The notes beneath the pieces are model-generated. The model saw only the letters and a list, made by a program, of their open reading frames with translations. It had not been told where the DNA came from and did not search any database. A DNA stretch of 28,218 bases from Saccoglossus kowalevskii (Eukaryota > Hemichordata > Enteropneusta > Harrimaniidae). Each line of letters opens with the position of its first letter. The stretch's first letter is position 1. Positions 5,842-24,226 of the stretch are shown here, piece after piece. A program made the translations under genes and the position numbers. The stretch spans positions 1 through 28,218 of the forward strand of contig NW_003123435.1 of NCBI RefSeq assembly GCF_000003605.2, written 5' to 3'.

Positions 5842-5909
5842 TGTATTCGCATACAAATCCAGCACGCCGATCACAATAACTATCGTCCCACTTAAATGCA
5901 TTCTTTTTC
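5842..5909 (-). CDS. Exon 16: C-terminal end of the C-type lectin domain
   Basis: A 68-base exon between a TAG acceptor and a GTAAGTG donor, entering in phase 2 and leaving in phase 1. It encodes the end of the lectin fold: KWDDSYC, the place of the conserved WND Ca2+/sugar-binding motif with Asp for Asn, then the closing motif AGFVCEY. The two cysteines are the standard last pair of a C-type lectin domain. It joins exactly in frame to the exon at 6485-6812. Confidence 0.9.
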
Positions 5910-8900
5910 CTACGAAAATAAATAAAGAAAATACGATTTAACATTCGTTGGCTACATTTCATAGTCATCCATGATTATAATAAATTTACATGTATTGTGT
6001 ATTTTATCAGTTAAATTGTCAACGTGGCTGTCCGAGTATATTTGTGTTAAATGTTACTTATTCTTTTGTTAATCCATTCTAGGTTAGAAATACAGTTGAC
6101 CACTTGAATAGCATAGCGTAGTATATTCACTGTATTACGTATTCTATTCAACTATTCTGTAGTGTCTGTGTTGTATTTTCTTCAAAAATGAAGTCTATAC
6201 CAGACAAGTGACGTAAATACCGTCTGAAACCATCTTCGTACCAGTGTTATCATAATTAACCACAACCTCTCAAATATTTTCTAAAATACAATTAGTGATT
6301 TGCTAGAAAAATCAAGGTTAATTAGTTTTAGGAGAGAAGGACAACATATGCTCCAGATGGACAAATACTAGAAACCAGTAAAGAGCTATGCTGTGTAACT
6401 CTAGGCAATTGATGATGATGATAACGTGACTACAACCATCTAAGTTTTGTAGTAGAAAAAACAACAGCCAAACGCGACGCTTACCATAACTGCACGCAGT
6501 CTTGACCTAGTGGGTTTTTGTTGACGTTATTGTTCGGCTCATTTTCTGCCCATCTCGTGAAGTCACCAAGGGCAGTTCCATCAGTCCAGTAAAATGTCCC
6601 TTCCGTGTCAATATCATTTAAACCAAACCAGAAGTTATTATTATCAATTCCATATTCGGATATGTATCTTCTAATTGCTTTATCGACTGAATGTGTGTCG
6701 ATCTTGGCAAGCATCCCACCTCTAACTTCGCAAGTGTTTTTTGCTGTAGTCCAATTCCTTTTCTGTGTAATAACCTCAAAATACCGTTCACCCACACATA
6801 TCTTGTCCGTAACTGTAAATAAACAATGTAAACAAAGTACACTGTAGCCTCGTTATAACGAACTGTTTGAGAGACATACAATTAGTTTGTTATAGTGAAA
6901 TGTTCACTATATTGAAGCACATATTACATTGGGTTTGTTGTAAGCGGGAGACATGTTATGTGTTCATTATATCAGGAAATTCATTATAAAAGTGTTCATT
7001 ATATTGAGGTTACAGTGTAATACTTGCAGTTTATCGATATTTACAAATATAATCCAGTCAACCATTACACATCTGTATTATGAAATATATCATTAAATAA
7101 AATATATCACATTACAGTATCCCTGGACCACCGCGATAAAGAGATTCTGTTTTCGACAATGTTGATTTTTGTTTTGGGGAAAGTGTGAATACAGTGTATA
7201 GTATATACTCACCGTTGCAACAACAATATTTCTCATTTGGCAGTTCTTCATGAAACTAAACGAAAACAATTGAAAACACATAAATACATAAAACCTGGAA
7301 TTCACGTGTTTGATTACGAAATCTGCATTAACCCGGTTGTATGTCAAAACTAAATACAAAATTCAGTGTTTCATGAATACCGACAATGTGTTTGATTAAA
7401 TACATTATGTTTGACATGTTTGATAAAACACATTACCCTGTACAGCGTTTCCAAATAGTAGCAACCACACTTAGATTCCTCAACACAGACTCCACCTTCA
7501 TCCAAGACTAATCCGTCCGCACAAAAGCACCCTTCGGTACATTTTTCAACACATGATTGTAACGGGTGGGGCTCCAAGCATGTCGGTGGGCAAAGTGGAC
7601 CACAGTGATTATAGGCCGTTCCAGCGACGGGACAGTCGATTTCTACTCAGTATGTAAAAAAAAACGAAGCACATGGGGCTTAGATACATATCAAATTGAA
7701 GTGTTTGATAATTTTCATTTTGGACGATTATAATCCAAAATATGCATTAATTAATAATTATTTGACTAGGTTTTACATACCACACTGGGTGCCACTTCGC
7801 CAGTCACCGATTTCAACACCAGCAACATTACACTGGTTTACATAGTCAGCAACTACACTACAGCCCTCAGTGGTACTAGGCAGAGAGTACTGAACGTCCA
7901 TAATACAGGAGTCTTGGTAAAAACCCGGATCAACTGTGCCGGCACAGTCGCGAATATTCCCTGTTGATAAGTGTATGAAAGAAAGAATACATATCTCAAA
8001 AAAGCATTCTGACCAATAGCATGGCAGCAGCTCATCTCAGAAAAGCATTCTGACCAATAGCATGGCAGCAGCTCATCTCAAAAAAAGCATTTTAACCAAT
8101 AGCGTGGCAGCAGCTCATCTCAAAAAAAGCATTTTAACCAATAGCGTGGCAGCAGCTCATCTCAAAACAGCATTCTGACCAATAACATGGCAGCAGTTTA
8201 ACATTTGTAAGCATTTATAGGACTTCACACTGCCAGATTATAGTTATAAACACACAATATTATTCACAGCGGGCACACTTCTGATTACAGCGACCGGGCG
8301 CTTTATCTTGGTCGTGGAGTCGAGTCGCGTCTTGTGTTCGTAGTAAGCCCGTGATTTCCATACAAGTAATGTATATTAAACATAATACACCAGACAGAGA
8401 TGTTAACGACATACCTGCATTGAATAAATCGTTGCAAATTGTTTTAGCTGAGCTACGGGTAACTAGTCTCTCAACTGATCTCCGAGCTGGGTTACAATCT
8501 GCATTTGCTATTATCCAGCTATCGCCAAATGTCGCAGCGTTATTAGTCTGTTGAGTATGAAATTCTAATTTAACAAATATCAGATTGACTATAACCAGTA
8601 TAATTGTATTGGGAGGAGAAATAATAGTGTCGTTCACTGCTGATATTAGTAGGTGTACATGTATGTGTAATTACAAGAACTTATATCAAATCATTTTCAC
8701 CACTTAAATGTGATCAAACTAAATGTATTTATATTCTGAATAGAGACTGTTCATTCATAAAATGTGCAACATTGTCTCTAAAAAACATTTTCACCACAAA
8801 AATCAAAATGGAGTTTTTTTTATACAAAAGGATATTCTGAATAGACATTGAATAAGAACTGTTCTTTCATTGAATTTTTTTATAATACTGTGGAATAATT

Positions 8901-11900
8901 TATTTTTGCTGGAATTAATTTTCGCTGAAAAGGCTTTTTGGACGTTTTGTATGGAATTTTGTATGTTTAATGTGAAATACATGAACAAAAGTATATACGC
9001 TGGATTTTATTTTCACAGAATCATCCCTTCATCGTAAATAGCAAAAATAAATTCCAAGCAAAAATAAAATATTCTACAGTACAAGACTTTCCTATACTTC
9101 TGAAGGTCTAGATAATCTGAAATGTCCAGATATGCGCATATGTAGTTTGTTTTGTTCTTAGCTCGTTGAAAAGCATTTGTATGATGATAAAAAAATGGTT
9201 CACTGGACCTTCAAAAGTGTCATTGGTCATGTAGTTTGACTGTCATATTGGTTTCCCGGATGCAAAATTCCCTGTTTCTAATGTACTTGGTTTGGGAAAT
9301 ATGTAATTTTTTTTGTCATAGTATAATTGACATATTGCCTAAAGACTTACCATCATATATCATTTTAACCAAAATGCAAAATAAAGAATTGTAAAAACTA
9401 TCATAGATCGATTTATCAGTGTGACAAGCATGAGTTGCAGCACAAAATCACCTAACGACATTGGTGGGGGAAATTGTTTTGTCCATCTGATCAAAATATA
9501 TTATTTAACTTAGTGAGTGATACAGCGGTCATGCAAAACTGGCAGTAGCAGCTTTTTTTTAAAAACAAGCCGCTCCATTCAAAAAACAAGCAACTGTTTC
9601 CGGCTGTTGCCTTGCTAGGACATGAACGTGAAGCTAACGTGGGTTCATAACTAAAGCCGGGTTTCGTATACGAATCGAAGTTTGCAAAAAGCATTCAGTC
9701 TTTATAAGTCACGTTACTTTATTACTAGTCCGTACCCTGTTGTTAGAATTATTATTTCCGACCGTTCTTTGATTTAATGCTGCAGTTACAGTACATTCAA
9801 AGTTGGTAAAGTAACAATGGCGGCGCCGGTTATCCCTCATCGGTGCGGAACTTAGCCAAAAGAAAAAGCATGATAATCTTCTGGAGGTAGATGCACGTCA
9901 AGGGATTGAGTAGCTAAGTAAAGCTACCTGTCACATGGCGGTTATCAATAAGTTGCTTATTATTAGTATTCCACACAAGTGACTTTTACGAAGAGGTTGC
10001 TAGAACTTAGGTGAGGTTACAAATGGACTGATTTAAATTCAGGTTTTCGTTCAAAGGATGAACAGTATGTTTATATTAGACCAGAATACACAAAGTAGTA
10101 CATTGCAAAGTTAGCTCACTGTTGAAGGAAACTTGTATTAGTGCCACTTGAATATATCGGAACTACAATATTGACATAAAATTGAACGAGCGCCAGAGTA
10201 TTCACTCACTTCTAACCTTCTAAAGACAGTGTGCCGAGATGTGGCCCTTGTACTTTTGGAACATATACACAGTGATGAAAGAATATGTACAGTACATACC
10301 ATGCAAATCAATGGCAACTTCATGCAGTGTGTTGAATATGTAACTAGAGACGATTATTGTATTGGTCCAGCACGGAGACTTTCGCCATATAACGAACCAC
10401 TATGACTAATCAGTAATACAGTAACAATAACCCAGTAGATAACCAGAATCAGTGGTCAGAATGGACAGACTGTAGTGGAGGCAACCAGGTGTGATAGATG
10501 GCTAGTTAAACCAACGATCTCAGTGCACAATCCCACCAAAAGACAATGCAACGCATGTTACGTGAAATTGGTGAGTGATAATATCAGAAAGTGCATAGAG
10601 TAATGCTCTCCAAACAAAAAATATGAATGAATAACTTGAGGTAAGTTTGTATGAGTGATGTACCGAAGAGGGCATTTAAAGAGGAGCATGGTTATGATTA
10701 GAGTCATGGGTGTGGGGGACGTGTGTGACTGAAATTATAACCATGGTTTCAGGAATTGAGATCATCATCTTGTATGTTGAACAGATTGACATAAATGAAA
10801 TACTGATACAAAAGAATGGAACTCAGGGAAGTATAGATGGATATATCATCTGAAGTGATTGGATTTGAGTATTTGAAAGACCTATGCCGTACGCGAGCGC
10901 CGGTTCGAGTCACGCACGCAGTAAGTGTTTACTATAATTAGACGTAGTATTTACCTTGCCGTTTATTCGGTGTTATTTGCTTACTATACCATATAAGCAA
11001 GGTTCAATTGACTAACACAAAAATGTGAAAATGTGCAAAGTTTTTACAAGATGACGGAGAAAAAACAAAACAAGTGAAAGTAACATTGGTCGTATAGTGA
11101 AACATGGCATTCACATAGGGGATCACGTTCTTAATTAGTCAGTCACAATGGCAGTTACAAATCTGATAGCATCTTGCACCAGATATGTGGGTGGGGCACA
11201 TATTTAGGTATAAATACTTAAAGCATCTATTCCACGCATTTTATGAATTAATATTGTTTACAAATCTTAGGAAATGCGCTTTATTTTGTATTCTGTATCA
11301 GCCATCATGTTATGCTTTATATGTTGTTATAAATGGTATCTTACAATTTTGCAACGTGTTAATATGTATTCCTCATCTTATTTGGTATACCATTCCCGAA
11401 TGACCCAGTAACTGTCTTTACTACTATATCGTTAAGTGGAAAGCTGAGATATTTCTTATTATTCATTACTGTTTAAGAATGCCTCCTAATTATCGATTTA
11501 TCAGACATTAGAAATGTTCTACCCCTCTCTGCTCGAAAGTGCTGGGGTAAACTGGTAATCAACTGTGTACATGGAAATACCACTAATACGATATTTATAC
11601 ATTTTACACAAAAATACTCTTAGTTTGACTTATCATTAAATTTGATGACTAATTTCAAAATTCAATTCTATATGGGTTTTGTGTTATTTTTTAAACCTAT
11701 TGTGACCAGTGTTTATGGAACACATTAGTTTGATTATTTTAATGTTTCTTTTACCTCTGGTGTGACAAGGGCTCACAGAATCTTGTTATAGAGTTTGAAT
11801 TATTGTACTTAACAAAAACAAACGTTTTACCAAGATCACCTGTGATGGCGCATTTCATAACATGTGAGTTCCTCTGCGATGACCTTTAACCCCACCTGCC

Positions 11901-14900
11901 AACTTTTGTGTGTTTATAGGTGAGTGATTTTTGTCATCCTTATAAAGTTCTATCAAGATAGTAATCCTTTACATCCCACTTGTTGAACTACTTGTATGAG
12001 TCGATAATGTGTTATTCGTTGTTGACATTTTTTGAAGTTTATGATCATTCTTTTGTATCTTTTGATATCTATAAAAAGTGTTGATGATCGTCCCATTGCT
12101 ATGTACATGCTGCCGTGTTGCCAAATACTATTTCTTGTTTTGATATGAATGATATGTATTTTAAAAACCCCACCTGCCATCTTTTGTGTGTTTCTAGGGG
12201 TTCGAAGGAGAAATAAAGATCAACAATGTAGAATCGGTTCATCAATCCACAATTGCATTCTCTGGTGTGTTATTATATTTCCATGTATGATCACCCAAAA
12301 TTATATACAACGCAAATCTCCGACTGACCGTCGAGTAGCCCTTTCACACTATAATCATGCAAATTGTATAAAGACTATTCGCATCTTGGTAATATTACAA
12401 TTATATCATTATTGTAAAGTTCTAACAAGTAACAATCGGACAGCCGGTGTACATGTACAATACATTCGACAACTGCAATGGAGTCAGTCACATGTGTGGA
12501 ATTAACACATTCAAAATATCTATGGTTCTTAAATAAGAAAAACAAAATCTCACCAGAGTGCCATCAGGCCTTGTAAAATCATTCCCCCAATTACCATCAA
12601 AGTTTCCACAAAGTCCGCATAATCGTCCACGATGTAGATTGGATGCTTCTATTCGAAGGTTGTATATTCCGTCAAAATATACAACAATTCCATACCCAGT
12701 TGTTACAACCTATTACAAAATATTTTATATATCAACTGAATTCGTATAGAAAACATGCATGAGAAGAATCCTGGACAAGCTAGGTGGTTTTAACATACCA
12801 GATATATCCCGGCTAGCGTCACCCTAGTTCTTGGGGTAACGTCAACAGGCACCGCGGTGAGTGTACCATCAATCATCAGTTTATTGCCCTGCATCAGCAA
12901 TATATCCTGTAAAAAGTGACACACTATGTAATTAACACATATGAATATAATCTGAACACGCATTTGCTTGTACTCTGGTTTTAAAAGGCCGCAAATGCAT
13001 CTAATTTCTAATTTACCATTACACCATAAAAAAGAATAATTACAATTTCACCTAAAATAAGAGAACATTTTTTTATTTCAGACAAAAGAAAATAATGAAA
13101 AATCAACGTACTATGCCTTCCACTATCACATGGACTTCTTTGGTCGTGGTTACTGGGCTTCCAGGATAAGGCCAATCACGATTTTTCACGATTATTTCAA
13201 GCTGCATGTATGGTTGTGGGCATCTGCTGGACATCATAACATATTCACACTTTCCCTGGTAGTCGAAACGTCTGTTATCAAAATTCGTGTAATGTGGATC
13301 ACCGCATCCAGAGCAGCTACCGTAACCTGTGATGCAGATTAATTGATCAGTTAATCAATAAAATAACCGCTTATAATAAAATTTTTTCAGAGACTATTTT
13401 TTGTCTCTTTAGATAGAGTTCTAGTTTGTTCTGTCATCGCATCCACATTTATATATTCGTGGTATCTGAAGCAGTGGGTTCGATGACAAATGTAAATATA
13501 TCTCTATTTCATGGGCAAAAGTGTTGTCTTCTCGGTCTCGTTCTCCGCGAGATCTTGGCGGCCATCTGTGCATATTTAGTATTTATGATTGTATTTTATA
13601 TATTTTTAGTATTTTTATTAGAGTGCATATCGAGACAACAACTTCATTGAAAGTAAGGTACTTTAAAAACTTTCACACACACAATCTATCATTTTGAAAC
13701 AGCAATATAAACGATGTATATTATAATGAAACAAATTGTGAGATTTGGGAAACAATATTACAGTTAAATTAAAATACCTGAGCAGTCGACCATATGATCG
13801 TCACAACAGTCTCCATATTTTACACAGTCGTCATCACACCAGCAATCTCGCTCAATAATCTTTTTTCCACAGTTATCTTTGCAGAATTCTGCAATTTGTT
13901 TGAAAGAAGAATTCATTCTGAAGGTTACAGCATTACTCAAATGTTAAAAATAATGGTGGTACTGTTTTTTGTTCATTGTCACATGTCATGTAACAAATTA
14001 TAATATTGAATAAACAAAACGGGTTACCATCCGTATAGAATGTATGTACTAAATTATGTTTGTTCAGAGCATTTTACTATTGTTTCCTTAAAGTTGAAAT
14101 ATTGTGGACACATTTTATGTATCAAAGCAGTGTCTAGAAGTCTACGTTTTATATAATTTACACTAATTTAGCTTGGATTTTCTATTGGTCTTTGAAAATT
14201 ACAACCCAATTGCTATTCCTGTATCTTATTTGAGTGTCAGCGAACTAATACATTTTGCACAGTTAACTAATACTAAATAAGAACAACGTTCTATAGGCGC
14301 GAATATATGACATATTTATAACTTTCTACCTGAATTAATGGTTTAGTGGAATTCATTCTGTTTGTATTTTTTCGTCGGGATTACACATGATCACTGTTCA
14401 AATTTGTCGATTTACTTGACTAATTAAATTGTTCAACTATTCGACAATATGGCAATATGCCTCACTTTTTTCACAACAGATCGCAACCGGAGTCGTTGTT
14501 GTCCCTCCAACCTTGTGACAATATTCTGTTGCGCGGCAAACAGTCGGAGGCAGTGGAGTTCGAAAAGGAGGACCCATACACAAACCAGCAGATTCAGTAC
14601 CATCTGGACACATCCATGCTATATTCGTATGAATAAAAAATAAAATAAAAAACGATGAGTTGTGATTTTGTAATAAAAGGTTCTCGTATATTTTCGATAA
14701 AAAATGCTCAAAAGTGAACAGTTTTCCCTTCCAAATAGTGATGTAACATTTTCAAACCTGATATGCATATTCCTACAATTTTTTATAACTGTGCTGAAAT
14801 ATACACAATTTTATTTCACATATTGCGCAAAGGAGAGTACTGGCGAAGTACTATAGATTCAAATTGATATGTTATTTGTCTGTTTCATATTTATTGTGTT

Positions 14901-17900
14901 ATATATATAATAATTAATCATTTGTTACGTGTGATTTCATAGACATCGCAACCAGTCGAAGTTCCTTCTCCAAATCGACATGATTCGTCTGCACCCCCTT
15001 CTTCATAATCTGCTGAAGTTGATACGGCGTAGCAGTCCCCATTGTCTTTCAACACAAAATAGTCATATCCTCCAGAATATGCAGCCCTTGCACATCCCTA
15101 AAAAACGTAATCGAAATACATTTTACCCTCTATGACGTAAATAAATAAGAGAAATGCATCTTTTTCATCTTTGGACGTTCATTAAAAATGTTGTTTTCAT
15201 TTAAATAAAGATGATGAACGACAGCACATCCAGAATCATGTTGACTCACAAACTACATTTTTAAACAAAAAAACAATTCTGCTATATTTCTAAACGATGT
15301 TTTTTATATAGTTGGTATCATATTTTGTGTGTGTGTGATCGTTTTTCTGTCTTTTGAAACAAGAAACAATTTCTCGCAGATCATTCAAAACATCTATTCC
15401 GAAATTGTTAATATTTGCATATTTATTCTTCTTATTATTATTATTTCTAATTGGCTTTGGCTGTAATTTCAGAACCCTTTGACATCGATCAATGGTGCTT
15501 GCAGCTGTCTTAGTTATCATGAATAAAAGTCAGTTCCGCTAGAGATTTCACAGTGAATCAGACTAGACTAGCTGTAAGCTACTTTCTGATTTCCTTTTCA
15601 CTCAGTTTCATTAAATACTTGTAATTATTCTTGTAATATTATCTCTACATTAAATTATTACTTGGTGAATGAACATCAATTGACATCAACATTAAATGTT
15701 CCGTTGGTTGTAAGTAACTCATTCAGGCTGTAACAGTTCACCGTGTAATCTGTATGACCTCCGACGTGAAAAATGTATTGTGTGATTGGATGGACATAAA
15801 GTGGTGAAAACGCACTTACTCTAGCTGGGTCGTTTGCATCAATATACCCATTACGAGTATTTTCCAATTTAACCATTTTCTCTGTGCAAGCCCAACATCC
15901 CTTATGACCATAGTCTACACAGTATCAAGCAAAAAGTATGACGTATTATACAAATACAGCCTTGTGGACACAGTGACGGGTACTAAAAATCAATTGGTTT
16001 AGAAACAAATCCACACAAAGTGAAACATGGAATCAAGTCGTACAGTCTATTCGTCAAATAAAATATGTCAAGGCCAAATACAAGTATTTTTTAGAAGAAT
16101 TTTGCAAAATTATTTTTTTGGAATCTGTTCTGTCTAATATTTCTTGATAACTGTACAAAATTAAAAGAAACGTTTACAATACGTCGAAGAGTCAGTAGGA
16201 GGATTGCTACGGATCAAACCTACTTAGAATGCAACTTTAAGTTTCAAGCTTAACGGACTTTTGGCGGATAGCATGTCCTAAGCAGCAATTTATAAGTGCT
16301 TATGGGTATGTAGGTACAGATGCTAATGGGTCATGGTTACCGCGTATGTAGACGTCATCTGTTTCCTCATTCTGGACCAGAATGTACAGCACGGAATCAA
16401 GATAACACTATGCAACGCCATACATATGCCACATGCTAAGATAAATCGTTATTTCTCGTGCTCACCTATTTCCAATGGGCAATCGACGTCCATACAAGTT
16501 TGTTCTTCGGTATCACTTCCAACGCATGGTTCAACGAGACAGACCCTTTTTCTAGTCTGCGTTCCGCCACCACAAGTTACTGAACAATCGCTCCAACTAG
16601 CATCCCAATCAGACCACGTTCCCCCTACATAATAATATATGAGAATACGAAGTTATTTGTTGCCACTTTACTGATATAAGTACGGCATAAGGAGTTCCAC
16701 AAAAACAAGAGCAACTGTTGATTGATGGAAAATGGAAATTGACCCTTCTTTTTAATTAAATGAGAAAAATTGAAACAGCTTAATTTTATTCAACCAGGTA
16801 GTGTCTTTTCCTCTTTGTGCATTGTGTTTGGTTAAGATGGAACTCCGAAAACAACAAGGTCTCCACTACCAAAACACTTTTTTGTTGTCTTGACTTTTGA
16901 GTAGCTATCAGTTTTTTGAAAGTACGCGTACATGTCATTCAGAACGCTCATGCGTACCCCTCGACCAGCCAAGTACCCCTCCAGGGTTCTCTCCTTTACT
17001 GAATGCGGTATATAAGAATGACACCCATTTATCACAATACTCAACAAGCTAAACCCATTTCCCAATTATATATATATATCGAGCTAAGGAATCTTCCGGG
17101 TTATCAAGGTGCTAACAAACTGCACAGTATACAGTGATCAATAAGATAGCAACATTCATTGTGAAAACTAAAACTAATGTAAACTTGCCCATCACTACTG
17201 TCCAAGACATAATGTGAGATAAATTTGTTTTACAGGTCACGTGACATACTTTTGTCAAACGCCATAAAACGCAATGGGTTGAAACATAACCTGTTTTGTG
17301 TGTGTGATTTCTATTTGGAAAACAGAGCGCAAAATAACAAACATAATTGATAGCAGCATAGACAGAAAATGCGACATTCCAAGCTGAAACATCACATTTG
17401 AAACATGCGGTAGCAGCTTTTGCATTCACACCCTAACACGACGTCAACCACCAAAGTCAAATTGATGAATGTAAACGTTCTTTTTTTGTCTCAGTAATTA
17501 TATATGGGTAATGTCACAGAAATGAAATATCTAAATCAATCGATAAGACAGTACTCACCATCTTCAGCAAAACAAAGCTGTAAAGAAATGAATCTTTGAA
17601 TTAGAGTCAATAATAACAGACCGATCGGCACCCTGACACATCTATACAAAAAATGGGCTATGTGGCTATACGCGTTACTGGTGTTAAAGGTAACGAGTTG
17701 AACATGGTATTATACTGCTAGGTCTGGCGCAAACTTTAAGGGTGTAAGAGTGTTTCCTTCATTAAATATTGCATTGTGGGTACTTTCATAGACAATTCTC
17801 TGTTCACACCGTGACCCTGCTTTATGTGTAAAATGTAATACACAAAAACATGACAAACAATTTAAGGTCATAGCGTTGCCATTGGGCGCGATTTGACAAA

Positions 17901-17938
17901 CGTGAAAGTATTTTGGGAATATTTTCACGCTTAATAAT

Positions 17939-18004
<66 letters not shown>

Positions 18005-21000
18005 ATTGAAGTCAATTTTGATGAAGAAAGAATATCTCAACTCTATATACCGCCTGATAGATTGGCATATCGATAATGGATAATTTGTGTACAATTTGTA
18101 AACTCATTCGAACTTTTTGTCCCACGGTCAGCGCCCTCAAACCATACGCGAGACTTCCCAATGAACGGGAAACCATGTTTGCAGCACTCGCGTAATGTAA
18201 TAAGCGATCGCAATATACTCACAAATTGACGTTGTTTTGTTTTGTTATGCGCATGGCCACGCATATAAGACTGGACAAGATGGCATTTAGCAGGGAGTGG
18301 AAGATTTACATGAAATCGGCCTCGTACAAGGTCAGACAACAACGAAGTATATCATAGATTGATTACGTGCATGTGCATTCGTGTACAGAAAAATAATTTT
18401 AATCCGGTTCTGCATTTACTGTCATAAATATAAACAGTTGACTCAACTAGAATCATTTAAATATACTTTAAGTCACGTGAACCACAAAATCTATCCCAGT
18501 ACGTATATCACTTTCGACATGAGCCGACTTTTGTTAGACACGTTTCAGCTATAGAGGGCGCTATTACACATATCAAGTGGCAGCTTGAGTCAATAAACAA
18601 ACACTGAGGGCGATATTTTGGAATCCTGAGGGTGGTCTATTGACAATGATATATCTTATTATTATCTTATTGTAATCTAACAATAACTTTAATTAATTTG
18701 TTTGCAAGTAATATTATGATCAGTGTTTTATTAACCTGTGTCCTGCCAGCTCCATGTGCTTTTACAATGTCATTGGCTTACTTGAAATACTAATTTTGCT
18801 TACAAATATCTTTTAGCAAAAATAAAATCTTTGCCGATCACCTGACACCAATTTCTACCTTTTGGTAGAACTTTAATTTGAGTATCGATGACGTCAATAT
18901 CACTTATGTGATGAGGTCAGATAACTTTTGAGTAAAAAATACAAGTACAAAACTTTTCCACAAAACATTTCTAGTTTTTGGTTTTGGTCCAGCTTCGTGT
19001 CCTATATTGAATTTTTAAAATGTTCATCTAATTATATATTTCCTCTTGTCTTGGGGTGTGGCACCTCTTCCCAGAGTTACGCTACCGCCATTGAACCACT
19101 TTCAAACAAAATCAGAAAAAAAATATTCAATGGCTAACTAACTGAATGCACTTCCATTCACTCCACACTAAAATGTAATTCATGGTGCATTATAAGTCCG
19201 CCATTCTAGTGTTATTTTCTTGCACCTTGCTTCCTTATAAACATTACCTTTCATATAAAATAAAAAATGATAAATAAATAAAAAAAATATTTATTAAAAA
19301 AAATTACCTTTCAAAAGTCAAAGATTACATAGATATGAAGTTATTCATGTACGATTAGAACTGGCGACAAGGACACCGAGCGTCTATGTGATATTCCCGG
19401 CGTTTCTTCCATTCAACCATAGATCAACGTCAATGAAAAGTTGCTTAATGAGTTAGCTTATTCCACGCCTCTAACGTGCAAACCGACAAGGTCAATGAAC
19501 AAACACAGCTTTATTCTGTATTTTTTTTCACTGCATACAGTGATATACAAATATATTTCTATTGTATTTGTTGTAGTGATTGATTAGGTTTGAGACAGCG
19601 CTGGTCTGGAAAATTGTTTTAAAATAAATATGCGATAGTAGTGAAAAATAAAATTGCAAAAAAAGAAAGAATATTTAATATGGCACAGAGCTACTTTATT
19701 ATCAAAATGTATGTTCGATAAAATAATTATTATTTTTTTTCTTTAAAAATATTGGGATCTATACATGTATCAATCATACCAAGAAACTTGTTCATTTTAC
19801 GTTATCAAACATTTCAAGAGAAATAGTTTCACACTAGAAACCAGGTGGAAAATGTCAATGTTGTTTTTTACATGACATTCCAGGCTTATAATAATGTATA
19901 ATCGTGCTTTCAATAATTTGTGGTATAAGTGGAATTAAATAAAGAATTGGAAAATCTTATCTGATTTTAGTAATCATCAGTCCGGTTAGAGAAGACAGAA
20001 CTAATTCTAGTAGGCGATCAGAATGGGGGGATGGGTGCTTCCACAGGGCTTATCGCCGTCTTTGGGTCCCGTTAGGGTACTTGGGGTGTATGTAGGTCAC
20101 GATAAATACGAAAAAGAAAAACTTAATTTTTGGACAAAAATAAAAAAAAATGAAAGATAAACTTCAGATACGAAAATCGAATTGGAATTGGAATTTGGGG
20201 TATTCCAAAACTTATAAGATATGTATATTTTCACGTATTCTATATAATTAATACTTTTCAAGGCTGATTTGAGCAACTGACTAATTAACATCATCATGCA
20301 TATGTATTTTACAATTGATAATTGATACTATCAATATCAGAAATATACTTCATAATTCGAAGGTAACTTCAGAAATGATTCCTTATTTTAATAAACAGTT
20401 TGTTCCTATTCTATCTAACAAATACACGCAAACAATATCATTCAATTACAAACGAACATCTCATAACTTTAAATGTGGACAATTTTGGTCAGAGTCAGAT
20501 TCTGTGTGGCTGGTTTACCTTGTTATTTAATTATAGCACCAGGTTTTCGGGTTTTTACTGGGGATGTGAACATGTTTTAACATGATTCTCTTCGAAAGAT
20601 AACAATTAGGGTCACAAATTAAAAATCATTATGAACTCAGTTGAGAAAATTGTAAGTAAATGTACTGAACGAAGGGAATTAGACCTGATACCTTAAGCTT
20701 GTTGGTGAATGCTATAAGAATTTAGCTACATTGTTAAATCAATAGACTTCGAAACATCTGTCAGCATACACACATAATTGGGCCTATTATTTTCCCCTTT
20801 ACAATGCATATAAACTGGTTATTCCATTCACTGGGGCATATTCAGAAAAAACAGTATCTGAATAGGAAAAATCAAATGTAACTAATATTAATTTGATATC
20901 GTGCACAGTTTTGACATTTTCATTTATTGAATTGTCAGAGTTGATATCCGGAAAGTTCTATATTCTTTCGTTATTGCCATGATGACGATTCACAAAACAT

Positions 21001-24000
21001 ATCTCCTTAACTAAAATATTCATACTATTTTAGCAACAATCGAGGTATCGATGATATATCCCCTTAACTAAAATAGTCATTCAGATCCCAATCAGGCTTA
21101 TTCCGCCTTTTATGACATTTTTCATGGTATATCATTTAAGCATGTACAGGTAAAAAAATAAAACAAATTACACAAAAGTCCCGCAAACCTTGGATATCTA
21201 AAGCCTTATTTAAATCAATTCATACAAAATATAACTTATTTAGTAAAATGAAGAAACACCCACAAAACACTGAACTCAAAAATAAATATAACTGTATAGA
21301 AATACATTGACAAAACTCCTTAAGTCAGCAAAAAAAGGTGTTTTATTCAAAGAAAGTATCATCTGCGAATGGTAACACGAGTAAAACGTGGCAAGTGGTC
21401 AATAAAATTCTAAATAAAACTATTACAAAAATGGCCCCCAAAAACTGCATTTCACTACGCTAAACAAATAACAATACCTGACAATAACTGACAGTTTAGA
21501 CATTGCAAATAGTTTTAACTCGTACTTCACCAACATTGGGCCCAATCTCGCTGCCAATATCAATTGCCCGCCACACAATTTTAGAAAATATTTAAGCGGA
21601 AATTTCAAACAAGATGTTTTAAATACAATTAAATCACTAAATCCCCGTAAATTGCCTGGGCATGACCAAATTACTCCAAACAAGTTATCCATGCTGCTGA
21701 CGTCATCTCTGGTCCCTTAGCCTACGTTATCAATTGTTCACTGAGCCAAGGAAAATTTCCCGACCCGCTCAAGATCGCAAAAATTACCCCAATCTTCAAA
21801 AAAGGTTCGGTAACAAATGTCAGTAATTATCGTCCAATTTCCATTTTACCAATTTTTAGCAAAACTATTGAATCGCTTGTAAATAAACAATTTATTGACT
21901 ACTTAGAAAAAACACATATAAAGATAAACACCCAATTTGGTTTTCTTAAAAAACACAGTCCCAAGCTTGCTCTTGCAGACTTACTTTCAGACATAGCTAC
22001 AAACCTTGACAATAGATCCATCACCTTTGGCATTTTTTGTTGATCTCAAAAAGGCATTCGACACAATTAACCATGACATCCTCATTTCCAAATTAGAGCA
22101 TTATGGCATTAGGGGGGCTCCCACTTTTAAGGTTTAGAGACTATCTTTACAATCGCCACCAATCAGTTACTTTAAATAACATTTCATCATTATACAATCT
22201 AATTAAATGTAACATCCCTCAAGAGTCTATTCTGGGTCATATTCTATGACATTGCAAATTCAACTAACGCCTTCAGTTTTCGGCTCTTCGCAGATAAAGC
22301 AAATCAATTTAAATTCCTCAAAGACAGCCACATCAATCTTTCCGATATCAGCAATGACTTTCAAAGAGTCTGCGAATGGTGCAGTGCTAACAAACTCACA
22401 ATAAATGTACAGAAAACAAATTATATAATTATTAAAACAGCACAACGAGCTGTTAACACCGAGATAAGTCTGCTTATCCAGAAATCTCCAATTGAAGGGG
22501 TTCTATCAACTAACTATTTGGGAATTGCAATTGATCATCATATCAATTGGAAATCCCACATTGACAAAGTCAGAACAATAATTGCCCCCAAAGTTGGAAT
22601 CATTTCTCAAATTCGACACTATATTCCTAAATATATACTTCTTTTGCTATATTACTCGTTGATATTGCCACACATAATTTACTATATAGAGATTCGGGGA
22701 AATACTTATTCAATGCTATTAAATCCAATTACGCTTCTACAAAAAAACATTGTCCACCTAATCTCATTTTCTGACTTTCGTTCCCATACCGCTCCTCTCT
22801 TCAAATCTCTTGATATTTTAAATATTCATAAGCTCTCTATGTTACTCACCTGTTTGTTCGTTTTTGACTTAAAGAAGAAGCAATATGCCCATAGTATTGA
22901 TAAATATTTAGACACACTACCCCATAATTACCCTACAAGATATGTTGCAGGCGACAACTATTATACTCCCAAGGTCAATCTCACATTAAATCAACATACT
23001 CTCAAATACGCTTCCACTCACTTTCCGATCACATAAAATGTATACAAAATAGACAGTCTTTCAAATGCCACTTTAAAGGGTATCTTCTAGAAGATATGTA
23101 AATTTTACTTTCTTATCAGTATTATGTGCATTTGTATGTTACGTTGTTTTATTTTATCAGAGCGTGTGAGTGTTTCTGTACTGCTTTATGTATTATAGTA
23201 TTCATTACATGCTTTAACTATGTCTTGTGTATCTTAGCTTATCATTATTTTATTATATATCTTGGATCATTGGTCACAGACTAGACGAGCTTGAATAAGC
23301 TAATTCTGTGACCCCACCAGAAACAAAAAAATATACACTATATTACTATCATTGTAATTACTACTATTATTAATTTTAAGTATTTATTTATTTATAATTT
23401 ACTACTCAATGTATACACTGTTTCTGGTGAAAAATATGTCATTCATTTATTCATTCATTCATTCATTCATTCATTCATTCATTCATTCATACTATTTAGA
23501 GCGAAAATCGAGGTATGGATGACATATTCCCTTCACTAAAATAGTCATACTCTTTAGAGCAACAATCGGGGTATTGATGACGAATCGCTATGAATAAAAT
23601 AACTGGTAAACATATTGTATTCATTTCGGCTTCAGAATGTTTCTTGCCGGCTTTTCTTTGTTCAAAACATAGACCAATATGTATGTCTTGTATGTTATTG
23701 ACATCCCGTCTAAGGTTTTCACAATCGGCTAACCAAAACGAATGTTTTTGTTTTAACATGAAAATAACTGGCTTTGTGTCTACCCAAACAGGTTGGCAAA
23801 AAGGATCATACCTGACCCTACTCTTGATCATCACAATTATTGTTGTTGAATATTTGTCACAAGAATACAATTCCAATCAAAACAAATTCGAGTGGCGATT
23901 TAAAAACACATACTTAGTAAGTACATACTTAGCCATCACTCTTTCTTATGATGCATTGCAGAACACGAACAAAAATGTGAAAAATCATTGATATTTTTTT

Positions 24001-24226
24001 TTTCTCAGTAATGGAATGGTGATTTCAAATTTAGTAGTTGTCAAACTGAATTTATGTGAATGTGAAGAAAAGAAGAAATATCAAAAGAAGTTGCCGATAA
24101 AGTGATCAACGTGATGTTTATTTACTTCTCTTGTGTATCAAATATAACTAGCATGGAAGCACTACTTACCTTACTTGTATGTACGAGTGCGATGGCAACA
24201 AGCATGCACTGTAGTCTACTCAGCAT
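5842..24226 (-). CDS. Secreted multidomain protein: TSP1, WSC-like, Cys-rich, SMB, VWD-C8-TIL, C-type lectin (16 exons, span includes introns)
   Basis: Joining the 16 exons listed below gives an unbroken frame of 733 residues plus one base. Approximate residues: signal peptide 1-22; TSP1 26-78; WSC-like module 79-167; six-cysteine module 168-217; somatomedin B 219-254; VWD 255-430; C8 431-518; TIL 520-587; linker 588-601; C-type lectin 602-733. All modules are extracellular and disulfide-rich. VWD-C8-TIL units are typical of mucins, von Willebrand factor and zonadhesin-like proteins; the EPN-type lectin domain suggests Ca2+-dependent sugar binding. I infer a secreted matrix, mucus, adhesion or defence protein. 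No transmembrane segment is seen in the rebuilt part. It is not a gene I can name. Confidence 0.85.
6485..6812 (-). CDS. Exon 15: main part of the C-type lectin domain
   Basis: A 328-base exon between an ACAG acceptor and a GTAAG donor (phase 1 in, phase 2 out). It contains the hallmark C-type lectin segments in order: [25 protein letters not shown], the WIGL-type core [22 protein letters not shown] and [11 protein letters not shown] is the classical motif for mannose-type sugars in Ca2+ site 2. An N-glycosylation sequon (NWT) is present. The domain is finished by the exon at 5842-5909. A weak N-terminal cysteine pair in the preceding linker suggests the long-form fold. Confidence 0.93.
6838..7019. 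mobile_element. TA-flanked MITE with 24-bp terminal inverted repeats (mariner-type)
   Basis: The left end (6838-6863) starts TA CACTGTAgCCTCgtTATA. The right end, read on the minus strand from 7019, starts TA CACTGTAaCCTCaaTATA. The arms agree except for a few transitions, and each is tipped by a TA dinucleotide, the target site of Tc1/mariner elements. At about 180 bp with no coding sequence it is a non-autonomous copy. It sits in the 400-base intron just upstream of the main lectin exon, very close to its acceptor. Confidence 0.8.
7213..7255 (-). CDS. Exon 14: 43-base cysteine-rich linker exon
   Basis: A very small exon (acceptor …cgtttag, donor GTGAGTA; phase 0 in, phase 1 out) encoding [14 protein letters not shown], followed by a Val codon shared with the lectin exon. 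It is needed to connect the TIL exon, which ends in phase 0, with the lectin exon, which begins in phase 1, and it fits both. The three adjacent cysteines may close the TIL region or start the long-form lectin hairpin. The junction creates an NVT sequon. Confidence 0.75.
7437..7642 (-). CDS. Exon 13: TIL (trypsin-inhibitor-like) domain
   Basis: A 206-base exon (acceptor …tgagtag, donor GTAATG; phase 1 in, phase 0 out). It shows the TIL pattern that follows C8 in von Willebrand-type D assemblies: [31 protein letters not shown], then [14 protein letters not shown]. It has eleven cysteines, against ten in a standard TIL core. In this context TIL is structural and need not inhibit proteases. Confidence 0.92.
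7781..7960 (-). CDS. Exon 12: second part of the C8 domain
   Basis: A 180-base exon (acceptor …atcaacag, donor GTATGT; phase 1 in and out). It encodes [16 protein letters not shown], then [13 protein letters not shown] and a final WRSGTQC. This is the cysteine spacing of the C8 domain, including the aromatic Y preceding its cysteine and the closing WR..C. It is in frame with the half domain at 8415-8547 and runs directly into TIL. Confidence 0.9.
7990..8200. repeat. Minisatellite, five units of 41-42 bp, in an intron
   Basis: Five direct units read approximately 'atctcaaaaaagcattctg' then 'accaatagcatggcagcagct' and so on; the last is more diverged. Units 3 and 4 share 'ttttaacc' and 'agcgtgg', which shows local duplication of the unit. 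Each unit carries a CCAAT pentamer. The array lies inside the C8 intron (7961-8414) close to its right-hand coding end. Confidence 0.9.
8415..8547 (-). CDS. Exon 11: end of VWD and start of C8
   Basis: A 133-base exon (acceptor …ctcaacag, donor GTATGTC; phase 0 in, phase 1 out). The start, [13 protein letters not shown], is the usual FGnSW end of a VWD domain. NADCNPA and [14 protein letters not shown] follow as the first helices and cysteines of C8. It completes the D domain begun at 12554-13326 and is separated from it by a 4.0-kb intron, the longest inside the domain region. Confidence 0.9.
10436..10570 (+). pseudogene. TSP1-like relic, opposite strand to the host gene
   Basis: On the plus strand the bases from 10453 read [11 protein letters not shown], the opening signature of a thrombospondin type 1 repeat. 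After about 10485 the frame meets TGA. A shift of one base continues as RCDRW and later [10 protein letters not shown], ending at a good donor (GTGAGTG at 10571). An AG acceptor stands at 10434-10435. The frame break and the sparse cysteine pattern suggest a dead exon, perhaps from another gene inserted here. A chance match is possible because the recognisable part is short. Confidence 0.35.
11888..12199. repeat. Pair of 33-base direct repeats
   Basis: 'aaccccacctgccaactttt' at about 11888 with its following 'gtgtgtttatagg' recurs at about 12166 with two substitutions, 278 bases to the right. Both copies lie in the 4.0-kb intron. This may be a small remnant of a mobile element. Confidence 0.6.
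12554..12709 (-). CDS. Exon 10: VWD domain, CGLCG segment
   Basis: A 156-base exon, exactly 52 codons (acceptor …gtaatag, donor GTGAGAT; phase 0 at both ends). It encodes [14 protein letters not shown], then [12 protein letters not shown] and [15 protein letters not shown] is the vicinal-cysteine motif of VWD domains, and the following N/D-rich loop is their Ca2+ site. Frame and sequence continue perfectly into the neighbouring exons. Confidence 0.95.
12799..12906 (-). CDS. Exon 9: VWD domain, central beta strands
   Basis: A 108-base exon of 36 codons (acceptor …tttttacag, donor GTATGTT; phase 0 at both ends). It encodes [20 protein letters not shown] and the following strands up to GIYL. 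This is the LLQ…V.VNG…P stretch in the middle of VWD domains. The intron to the next exon is only 89 bases. Confidence 0.9.
13112..13326 (-). CDS. Exon 8: start of the VWD domain
   Basis: A 215-base exon (acceptor …gcatcacag, donor GTACGT; phase 1 in, phase 0 out). It encodes [20 protein letters not shown] followed by CEYVMM, the canonical opening of VWD with the GDPH motif, and ends in EVHVIVEGI. In MUC2, MUC5AC and inter-alpha-inhibitor heavy chains the Asp-Pro bond of GDPH is known to self-cleave. Whether that happens here cannot be told from sequence. Confidence 0.95.
13778..13888 (-). CDS. Exon 7: somatomedin B (SMB) domain
   Basis: A 111-base exon (acceptor …aaattgcag, donor GTATTT; phase 1 at both ends). 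It encodes [20 protein letters not shown] and then [15 protein letters not shown]. All eight cysteines of an SMB domain are present in the family spacing, with the C.C, GDCC and D-rich segments. SMB domains fold as small disulfide knots and mediate protein contacts, as in vitronectin, ENPP enzymes and PRG4. Being a single symmetric exon, it is a typical shuffled module. Confidence 0.93.
14466..14618 (-). CDS. Exon 6: six-cysteine module, lustrin-like
   Basis: A 153-base exon (acceptor …cgaatatag, donor GTGAGG; phase 1 at both ends). It encodes [13 protein letters not shown], then [12 protein letters not shown] and VAICCEK. The six cysteines and the CP-G start, C-x5-C middle and CC end resemble lustrin-type cysteine-rich repeats. 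The match is by pattern only, so the family name is tentative. The coding assignment is well supported, since both neighbouring exons join in frame and the flanking splice sites are good. Confidence 0.75.
14929..15097 (-). CDS. Exon 5: second half of a WSC-like module
   Basis: A 169-base exon (acceptor …tttttag, donor GTAACA; phase 0 in, phase 1 out). It encodes [20 protein letters not shown], then DCYAVS and, after an acidic stretch, [17 protein letters not shown]. The C..A…GY.YF…G.CY…C.G…C..VY layout resembles WSC carbohydrate-binding domains and related metazoan modules, though it is diverged. Joined with the exon at 15820-15914 it contains six cysteines. Confidence 0.8.
15820..15914 (-). 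CDS. Exon 4: first half of a WSC-like module
   Basis: A 95-base exon (acceptor …ctgtgtag, donor GTAAGTG; phase 1 in, phase 0 out). It encodes [20 protein letters not shown] and ends IDANDPAR, just before the GCARAA of the next exon. A GCW start followed by a linker to C..A is the WSC-like arrangement. An open frame continues into the intron, but the strong donor and the in-frame match to the next exon mark the exon end. Confidence 0.82.
16466..16624 (-). CDS. Exon 3: thrombospondin type 1 (TSP1) domain
   Basis: A 159-base exon (acceptor …tatgtag, donor GTGAGC; phase 1 at both ends). It encodes [20 protein letters not shown] followed by [14 protein letters not shown] and DCPLEI. The layered W..W…W and R.R residues and six cysteines are the standard TSP1 fold. 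The WSxW motif is a known site of C-mannosylation in this family. One full domain is encoded by a single exon. Confidence 0.95.
16625..17558. other. Intron 2, with an unidentified 77-codon open frame
   Basis: Between the TSP1 exon and the 19-base exon. A minus-strand frame at 17065-16832 is less AT-rich than its surroundings and reads like protein ([24 protein letters not shown]), but it has no splice support and I do not recognise it. A longer minus-strand frame at 17429-17112 looks like chance. Short (TA)n near 17068. Confidence 0.35.
17559..17577 (-). CDS. Exon 2: 19-base exon at the signal-peptide cleavage region
   Basis: A tiny exon (acceptor …catttctttacag, donor GTGAGTAC; phase 0 in, phase 1 out) encoding LCFAED plus the first base of a Gly codon. 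It connects the signal-peptide exon (ends in phase 0) to TSP1 (starts in phase 1). Cleavage is expected around CFA|ED. The same frame is also open further upstream on the minus strand with a hydrophobic run (GLLLLTLIQ) but without ATG. That is an alternative first-exon reading which I consider less likely. Confidence 0.7.
17863..17941 (+). repeat. Dispersed repeat, copy B
   Basis: A diverged copy of 3091-3184 in the same orientation, including 'ggtcatagcgt', 'gacaaacgtgaaagtatttt' and 'cttaataatgtg'. It is shorter in its centre and abuts the (TA)n microsatellite. Confidence 0.65.
17942..18001. repeat. (TA)n microsatellite, about 30 units
   Basis: An uninterrupted TA dinucleotide run of roughly 60 bases. 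It creates artificial IYIYIY frames on the minus strand. It lies in intron 1. Confidence 0.97.
18002..20978. other. Intron 1 sequence without a supported gene
   Basis: AT-rich. A short stretch near 18100-18350 is less AT-rich and contains CpGs, an ATAAGA box and a 25-codon plus-strand frame from an ATG near 18282, but nothing identifiable. 'agagggcgc' near 18555 is a phrase often seen in mobile-element ends. No exon with domain support was found. Confidence 0.45.
20979..21084. repeat. Left part of repeat block 1, with a 58-bp tandem unit
   Basis: 'ccttaactaaaata' at 21004 recurs at 21062, giving a 58-bp unit with 'catactattttagcaacaat' inside. The LINE begins after the second, incomplete unit, and the same units continue on the other side of the LINE at 23488-23583. 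The first part ('gatgacgattc') also matches 24240 onward. Confidence 0.7.
22518..23036 (+). pseudogene. LINE reverse transcriptase, C-terminal 172 codons
   Basis: The longest intact frame of the LINE. It begins at [19 protein letters not shown] (just after the first codons) and continues with the typical post-RT segment: [34 protein letters not shown]. This layout is characteristic of CR1/L2/Jockey-type elements. It has no start of its own and is the remainder of a larger polyprotein frame. Confidence 0.85.
23272..23313 (+). other. 3' UTR hairpin of the LINE
   Basis: GGTCACAGA (23272-23280) pairs perfectly with TCTGTGACC (23305-23313). Inside it AGCTT (23288-23292) pairs with AAGCT (23297-23301) around a GAAT loop. 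Stem-loops near the 3' end of CR1/L2-type LINEs are thought to be recognised by their reverse transcriptase. Confidence 0.7.
23444..23490. repeat. (ATTC)n microsatellite, LINE tail
   Basis: About eleven tandem ATTC/TTCA units at the end of the LINE, consistent with the microsatellite 3' tails of L2/CR1-type elements. Confidence 0.9.
23488..24115. repeat. Repeat block 1, right part (paralogue of 24236-24775)
   Basis: Long collinear similarity with the block to the right. Shared phrases include 'actggtaaacatat', 'ggatcata', 'aattccaat…aaaac', 'gcattgcagaacacgaa', 'attgatatttttttt' and 'gccgataaagt'. Together with 20979-21084 it is one block split by the LINE. Opposed open frames of about 130 codons inside it are not conserved in the second block. 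Confidence 0.7.
24170..24226 (-). CDS. Exon 1: signal peptide of the lectin-domain gene
   Basis: On the minus strand ATG at 24226-24224 starts [19 protein letters not shown], followed by a textbook donor (AAG|GTAAGTAG) in phase 0. This is a classic signal-peptide exon: a basic Arg, a hydrophobic core, then small residues. It fits in phase to the 19-base exon at 17559-17577, giving …HTSK-LCFAED and a plausible cleavage site. The frame is open for about 48 codons further upstream with other Met codons, but the start chosen is the one directly before the hydrophobic core. The link to exon 2 spans 6.6 kb and rests on phase and signal-peptide logic, not on transcript evidence. Confidence 0.65.

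Follow-up and report, generated by a model that had tools for sequence, protein, structure and literature searches.

A lectin-ended VWD-C8-TIL protein with a conserved GDPH site belongs to a gene family of Saccoglossus kowalevskii

Introduction

The assembly formed by the VWD, C8 and TIL domains is common to FCGBP, the gel-forming mucins and VWF. In FCGBP, cleavage at the sequence GDPH is autocatalytic: a change of the Asp prevents cleavage and a change of the His inhibits it, protease resistance rises, and after the cut the first strand is retained by a disulphide (PMC10880436). Proteins of wet adhesives contain the same domains. In the flatworm Macrostomum, ap1 combines a C-type lectin domain with VWD-C8-TIL, and RNAi abolishes attachment (PMC8621496, PMC6410801); ap1 of Theama is similar to that of Macrostomum (PMC9229212). 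The sea-star protein Sfp1, which is called autocatalytically cleaved, contains VWD-C8-TIL in three of its four parts (PMC8621496). The adhesive mucus of limpets contains a vWFD-lectin protein and a vWFD-TSP1 protein (PMC7333891). These statements, and the comparisons made below, refer to portions of the papers cited.

The window, as the whole stretch of DNA analysed here is called, comprises the entire contig C1619 (28,218 bases) of the 572-Mb assembly of the hemichordate Saccoglossus kowalevskii, which consists of 4830 contigs. The protein encoded in the window contains CGLCG and, as in FCGBP, GDPH, but it has a single VWD-C8-TIL set whereas FCGBP has many. Relative to FCGBP, the mucins and VWF it adds a TSP1 domain, unnamed modules, an SMB domain and a lectin domain, and a mucin stretch was not seen. 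Flatworm ap1 likewise joins a C-type lectin domain and VWD, C8 and TIL in one protein; however, ap1 is longer, with the lectin domain in front and many EGF domains, and neither SMB nor TSP1 is named in the portions cited, whereas the lectin domain of the window protein is C-terminal and EGF gave no Pfam match at E up to 1. Among the limpet proteins of adhesive mucus, P-vulgata_1 combines vWFD with a C-type lectin-like domain, P-vulgata_2 with TSP1 and P-vulgata_3 with C8/TIL. They differ from the window protein in their EGF, Kazal-type, cystine-knot or LDL-receptor repeats, and the word somatomedin is absent from the paper text (PMC7333891). Sfp1 resembles the window protein as a cohesive glue protein with VWD-C8-TIL and differs in its several units, its galactose-binding lectin domain and its EGF domains, with SMB and TSP1 not named in the portions cited. 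SCO-spondin also unites VWD and TSP1 in one secreted protein, but it has multiple TSP1 domains, instead of the single one in the window protein, as well as SCO-spondin repeats and LDL-receptor repeats, the latter without a Pfam match in the window protein; the portions cited name no lectin domain.

Results

Gene model

The preliminary description had joined 16 exons in frame into 733 residues. Rebuilding of the chain on the minus strand yielded the same end points, 24226 and 5842, with fitting phases, GT-AG introns and no stop codon. The 16 exons are correct but do not complete the gene; position 5842 was rejected as its end because exon 16 terminates there in an open donor. The true last exon, located via paralogues, encodes SFETACP followed by the stop codon TAA. 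When the window was searched for it with a 21-base pattern, one match with three mismatches was obtained, compared with none in 100 shuffles. The full model has 17 exons, with GT-AG in 16 of 16 introns, and encodes 740 residues, among them 61 cysteines (Table 1). It describes a single gene, with a provisional start, for a secreted, disulphide-dense protein in which a signal peptide is followed by TSP1, an unnamed cysteine module, a six-cysteine segment, SMB, VWD-C8-TIL, a C-type lectin domain and a short Cys-containing tail. The largest introns measure about 6.6 and 4.0 kb, and the first intron is rich in repeats.

Table 1. Exons of the gene in the window
Feature	Position	Strand	Support or remark
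Exon 1: start and signal peptide (provisional)	24170..24226	-	unmatched in two paralogues read
Exon 2: 19-base microexon, end of signal peptide (provisional)	17559..17577	-	
Exon 3: TSP1 domain	16466..16624	-	Pfam; paralogues
Exon 4: unnamed cysteine module ('WSC-like'), first part	15820..15914	-	conserved in paralogues
Exon 5: unnamed cysteine module, second part	14929..15097	-	conserved in paralogues
Exon 6: six-cysteine segment, no Pfam match	14466..14618	-	
Exon 7: SMB domain, eight cysteines	13778..13888	-	Pfam/profile comparison
Exon 8: VWD part 1, GDPH, Cys262 directly before GDPH	13112..13326	-	Pfam
Exon 9: VWD part 2	12799..12906	-	Pfam
Exon 10: VWD part 3, CGLCG	12554..12709	-	Pfam
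Exon 11: C8 part 1	8415..8547	-	Pfam
Exon 12: C8 part 2	7781..7960	-	Pfam
Exon 13: TIL domain	7437..7642	-	Pfam
Exon 14: short cysteine-rich link	7213..7255	-	
Exon 15: C-type lectin domain part 1 (EPN, GQDC)	6485..6812	-	Pfam
Exon 16: C-type lectin domain part 2 (WDD)	5842..5909	-	paralogue comparison
Exon 17: SFETACP and stop TAA	5345..5367	-	paralogue last exon; pattern search

Exons 1 and 2, which form a plausible signal peptide, are the weakest part of the gene model and provisionally provide the best start available. They are unlike the corresponding region of the two paralogues on contig C2164, in which a single signal-peptide exon lies about 0.2 kb before TSP1. A scan of 11.6 kb upstream for alternative starts returned four combinations, all of which use exon 1 of the preliminary description and two of which skip exon 2; with a simple donor score and hydropathy as the sole measures, no better signal-peptide start was found in these 11.6 kb.

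Several repetitive elements were observed in the window. The first intron contains the remains of a non-LTR retroelement with a broken reading frame at 21140-23036 on the plus strand, for which one of three pieces matched RVT_1 weakly (E 0.0037, below the cut-off), and the simple repeats (AT)30 at 17942-18001 and (TCAT)13 at 23439-23490. A 42-base unit is repeated in tandem 4.9 times at 7993-8196, within the intron that separates C8 part 1 from C8 part 2. The adjacent segments 353-1323 and 1278-2240, roughly 970 bases each, share 79.5% identity and represent a diverged tandem duplication.

Domains

The Pfam models TSP_1 (residues 35-74, 6e-9), VWD (259-413, 4.2e-29), C8 (452-519, 1.1e-11), TIL (525-577, 2.5e-10) and Lectin_C (619-732, 3.6e-16) matched the window protein above their cut-offs. 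VWD, C8 and TIL each occupy one stretch, in this order, and tandem D assemblies are absent. The best PDB matches to residues 251-601 were FCGBP, followed by VWF and mucins. Somatomedin_B (residues 220-254) scored 21.3 bits in the window copy, just under the cut-off of 23.1, and 23.6, 26.0 and 26.5 bits in three paralogues, all above it. A profile made from four copies of this stretch matches the SMB domains of ENPP1 and vitronectin, so that the eight cysteines and the profile match, together with the Pfam scores of the paralogues, identify it as an SMB domain.

The domains proposed earlier in this order, TSP1, SMB, VWD-C8-TIL and C-type lectin, were thereby recovered, SMB passing the Pfam cut-off in three paralogues; the exception is a module that had been labeled WSC-like. 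The latter had no profile support in the window copy or in the paralogues: a Pfam match to WSC was absent at E up to 1 in the window protein and at E up to 5 in the paralogues, searches in which the HMMER filters lose most matches above about E 0.1. Lacking a Pfam match, the exon 4-5 module was not accepted as a WSC domain. Four copies were compared, and both this module and the segment of exon 6 proved to be conserved; neither corresponds to a Pfam model, and their PDB matches reached only E 0.18 or worse, which leaves the WSC-like label unproven. Inspection by eye of the 740 residues revealed no long Pro/Thr/Ser-rich mucin region, and two N-glycosylation motifs are present.

GDPH, the lectin site and cysteines

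GDPH, the sequence required for a self-cleaving VWD, is located at residues 263-266 of the window protein and is kept in all 12 copies for which exon 8 was read (the window copy, two each on C2164 and C4257, and one each on C2793, C4071, C48, C3976, C2244, C2076 and C1345).

The usual mannose-type site of C-type lectins consists of EPN, the glutamate of GEDC, and WND. In the lectin domain of the window protein EPN is kept, GQDC stands in place of GEDC and WDD in place of WND, and the Glu-to-Gln position of GQDC was seen in a comparison with the mannose receptor. Among the nine lectin domains read, EPN occurs in two (the window copy and C4071), QPN in four and QPS in three; QDC replaces EDC in all nine, and where WND is usual WDD is found in eight and WYD in one. 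The preliminary description of a Ca2+-type lectin domain thus holds for the domain and its EPN but has to be qualified for GQDC and WDD, which are variants at calcium-site residues. From these residues, binding of calcium and sugar is possible but not assured.

The window copy retains each of the 56 mature cysteines of the copy designated B and adds three: Cys262 and, within the module of exons 4 and 5, Cys88 and Cys160, which could perhaps pair with each other. The codon of Cys262 lies at 13306-13304 on the minus strand, and no cysteine occurs at this place in the other 11 copies read. With the signal cut taken after residue 23, the mature protein contains 59 cysteines. As this number is odd, at least one cysteine has no partner within the chain.

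The gene family

Four parts of the gene served as queries against the genome: exons 4-7 as one block, the stretch from VWD to TIL as another, and the exons for TSP1 and lectin singly; since only the best candidates were scored, the family counts are lower bounds. The whole order, on one strand and with every part at E <= 0.01, occurs at no fewer than five other loci (two on C2164 and one each on C4071, C48 and C3976, the last counted as complete after its first VWD exon had been read directly). At two further loci one part is weak, namely SMB on C2244 (E 0.13) and the module on C2076 (E 0.099). Loci not counted as complete are the two on C4257, those on C2793, C3249, C1345, C3619 and C3981, and a second locus on C2076. 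In the paralogues these exons lie close together on a single strand, within some 5 to 10.5 kb, with no sign of a split into two genes. The claim that the window encodes one secreted protein of unusual domain order, belonging to a gene family of this lineage, is thus supported by the recurrence of the order in paralogues.

In the two compact C2164 paralogues, exons 3-17 have the same order, the same intron phases and the same last exon, a short exon encoding SFATACP and a stop that was read by eye and then joined. A strict SFxTACP pattern gave no match in six loci (C48, C3976, C2244, C2076, C3249 and C4071), so possibly only the closest copies possess this tail. The family may not be uniform: the two C4257 copies extend from TSP1 through TIL with no lectin domain among the 141 matches listed (best 150 of 236 candidates). 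On C1345 there are many TSP1 and module matches, and on C3249 three TSP1 matches, with SMB not among the matches listed; the repeated TSP1 and exon-5 matches of these two loci suggest longer members with several TSP1-module pairs.

In addition, the searches disclosed half a lectin exon with 61% identity at C2164:242201-242353, between the two complete copies, which is perhaps a decayed third copy. On C4110 (37.8 kb), lectin exons with nearly equal scores are spaced at intervals of about 8.0 kb, five on the minus and four on the plus strand; either paired lectin genes are arrayed in tandem here or the pattern is an artefact of the assembly. A C-type lectin match at C4613:481026-481202 lies within an open frame of 5,929 amino acids.

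Selection

Over 652 aligned codons, which omit the partly retrieved exon 11, the window copy and copy A are 69.8% identical; for copy B the identity is 58.8% over 689 codons. dN/dS amounts to 0.24 and 0.26, respectively, and to 0.20 between copies A and B (656 codons), values from a simple Nei-Gojobori count in which dS is high (0.86-1.22). As whole-exon averages, pN is smaller than pS for each exon in all three pairwise comparisons, with the narrowest gap in the 22 codons of exon 16 relative to copy A (0.15 and 0.18). All exons are therefore under purifying selection in the three pairs, and these averages give no sign of positive selection. The recurrence of the order in paralogues and the lower pN throughout indicate more than chance.

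The mitochondrial contig

Contig C4830 (17,037 bases) is mitochondrial. With its genes named by eye, COX1 has the orientation opposite to that of ND1 and COX2 and is preceded by 16S-ND2-ND1, and ND4L adjoins ND4. Of nine ATA sites in COX1, five correspond to Ile in the human protein, two to Leu, one to Val and one to Met, and the one AAA site corresponds to Lys. For S. kowalevskii compared with Balanoglossus, an inversion of COX1, a transposition of ND1 or ND2, and AAA as Lys are described in the portion cited, according to which ATA as Ile marks the Ambulacraria and ND4L has moved in echinoderms (PMC3121625). The contig thus agrees with an acorn worm of the Saccoglossus type, most likely Saccoglossus or a close relative.

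Discussion

The observed gene model, apart from its provisional start, the domain order, the family, the selection and the conserved GDPH provide the basis for considering how the protein acts. By analogy with its nearest functional relatives, FCGBP and the glue proteins of flatworms and limpets, the most likely role is that of a secreted, disulphide-dense cross-linker or accessory protein of mucus or an adhesive, a reading to which we attach slightly better than even confidence. Cleavage, disulphide pairing, glycan binding, the site of secretion and the function itself are predicted from the sequence and from those relatives. In the proposed mechanism, VWD would cleave itself at the Asp-Pro bond of GDPH, and disulphides would keep the two resulting chains, of about 26 and 53 kDa, together in a compact core that resists proteases. 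Partners might then be held by TSP1 and SMB at the N-terminus and by spare cysteines, and glycans by the C-terminal lectin domain, such that the protein would cross-link or arm mucus or glue, as proposed for FCGBP and the adhesive proteins of flatworms and limpets. Several points argue against a role in mucus or glue: no mucin stretch was seen, there are two N-glycosylation motifs, the calcium site of the lectin domain is a variant one, the signal-peptide exons are not shared with the paralogues read there, and immune and matrix proteins contain these modules too. Regarding a direct role in glue, VWD-C8-TIL and TSP1 have been argued, in the portion cited, to be unlikely surface-binding parts of glues (PMC8621496).

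An alternative that we regard as unlikely, though less so than those that follow, is immune recognition. In mucus or coelomic fluid the lectin domain would bind glycans of microbes, which the remaining domains would clump or tether, and the family would reflect a diversification of recognition. Several copies have diverged and differ in their lectin motif (EPN, QPN or QPS), which fits this alternative, as does the abundance of lectin-domain genes in the genome, with at least 147 matches. It is opposed by the purifying selection on each exon in the three pairs, with no sign of positive selection in the whole-exon averages, and by the VWD-C8-TIL core, a feature more typically found in mucus and glue proteins.

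A protein of connective-tissue or basement-membrane matrix, with TSP1 and SMB making contacts to matrix or receptors as in vitronectin or SCO-spondin, is improbable. The TSP1 and SMB matches are what such a protein would contain, and hemichordate relatives of SCO-spondin, which has VWD and TSP1, have been reported (PMC8261243, in the portion cited); yet the window copy has a single TSP1 domain, a C-terminal lectin domain, and a VWD-C8-TIL assembly closest to that of mucus proteins. Least probable of these alternatives is that two adjacent genes, or a chance or mis-assembled fusion, were read as one: the introns of about 6.6 and 4.0 kb, the repeat-rich first intron and the signal-peptide exons unmatched in two paralogues would allow it, but the two compact C2164 paralogues repeat exons 3-17 with order and phases unchanged, and the order is found at other loci as well, for which reason accidental fusion was rejected.

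Within the reading as a mucus or adhesive protein, a more specific proposal, which we consider very improbable, is that the family is a hemichordate class of self-cleaving, lectin-tipped cross-linkers and that in the window copy Cys262, which is apparently unpaired, could trap the reactive intermediate of Asp-Pro cleavage or form an inter-chain bond, so that the mucus or glue sets covalently.

The architecture had been described as unfamiliar. With respect to the order, no named orthologue that shares it was found in the open-licence literature among the matches listed, and a predicted database entry with the same order may exist. The combination of a C-type lectin domain with VWD or VWD-C8-TIL, by contrast, is known from glue and mucus proteins, as far as the portions cited describe them (PMC8621496, PMC6410801, PMC7333891, PMC9229212).

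The two conserved cysteine modules that remain unnamed merit family models of their own. The mucus and wet-glue proteins of animals draw on a small set of modules, and TSP1 and SMB placed before a self-cleaving VWD-C8-TIL, with the lectin domain last, would be a further assembly from this kit, in a deuterostome near the chordates. With its single D assembly, the protein is compact enough for GDPH cleavage and lectin cross-linking to be tested in one molecule.
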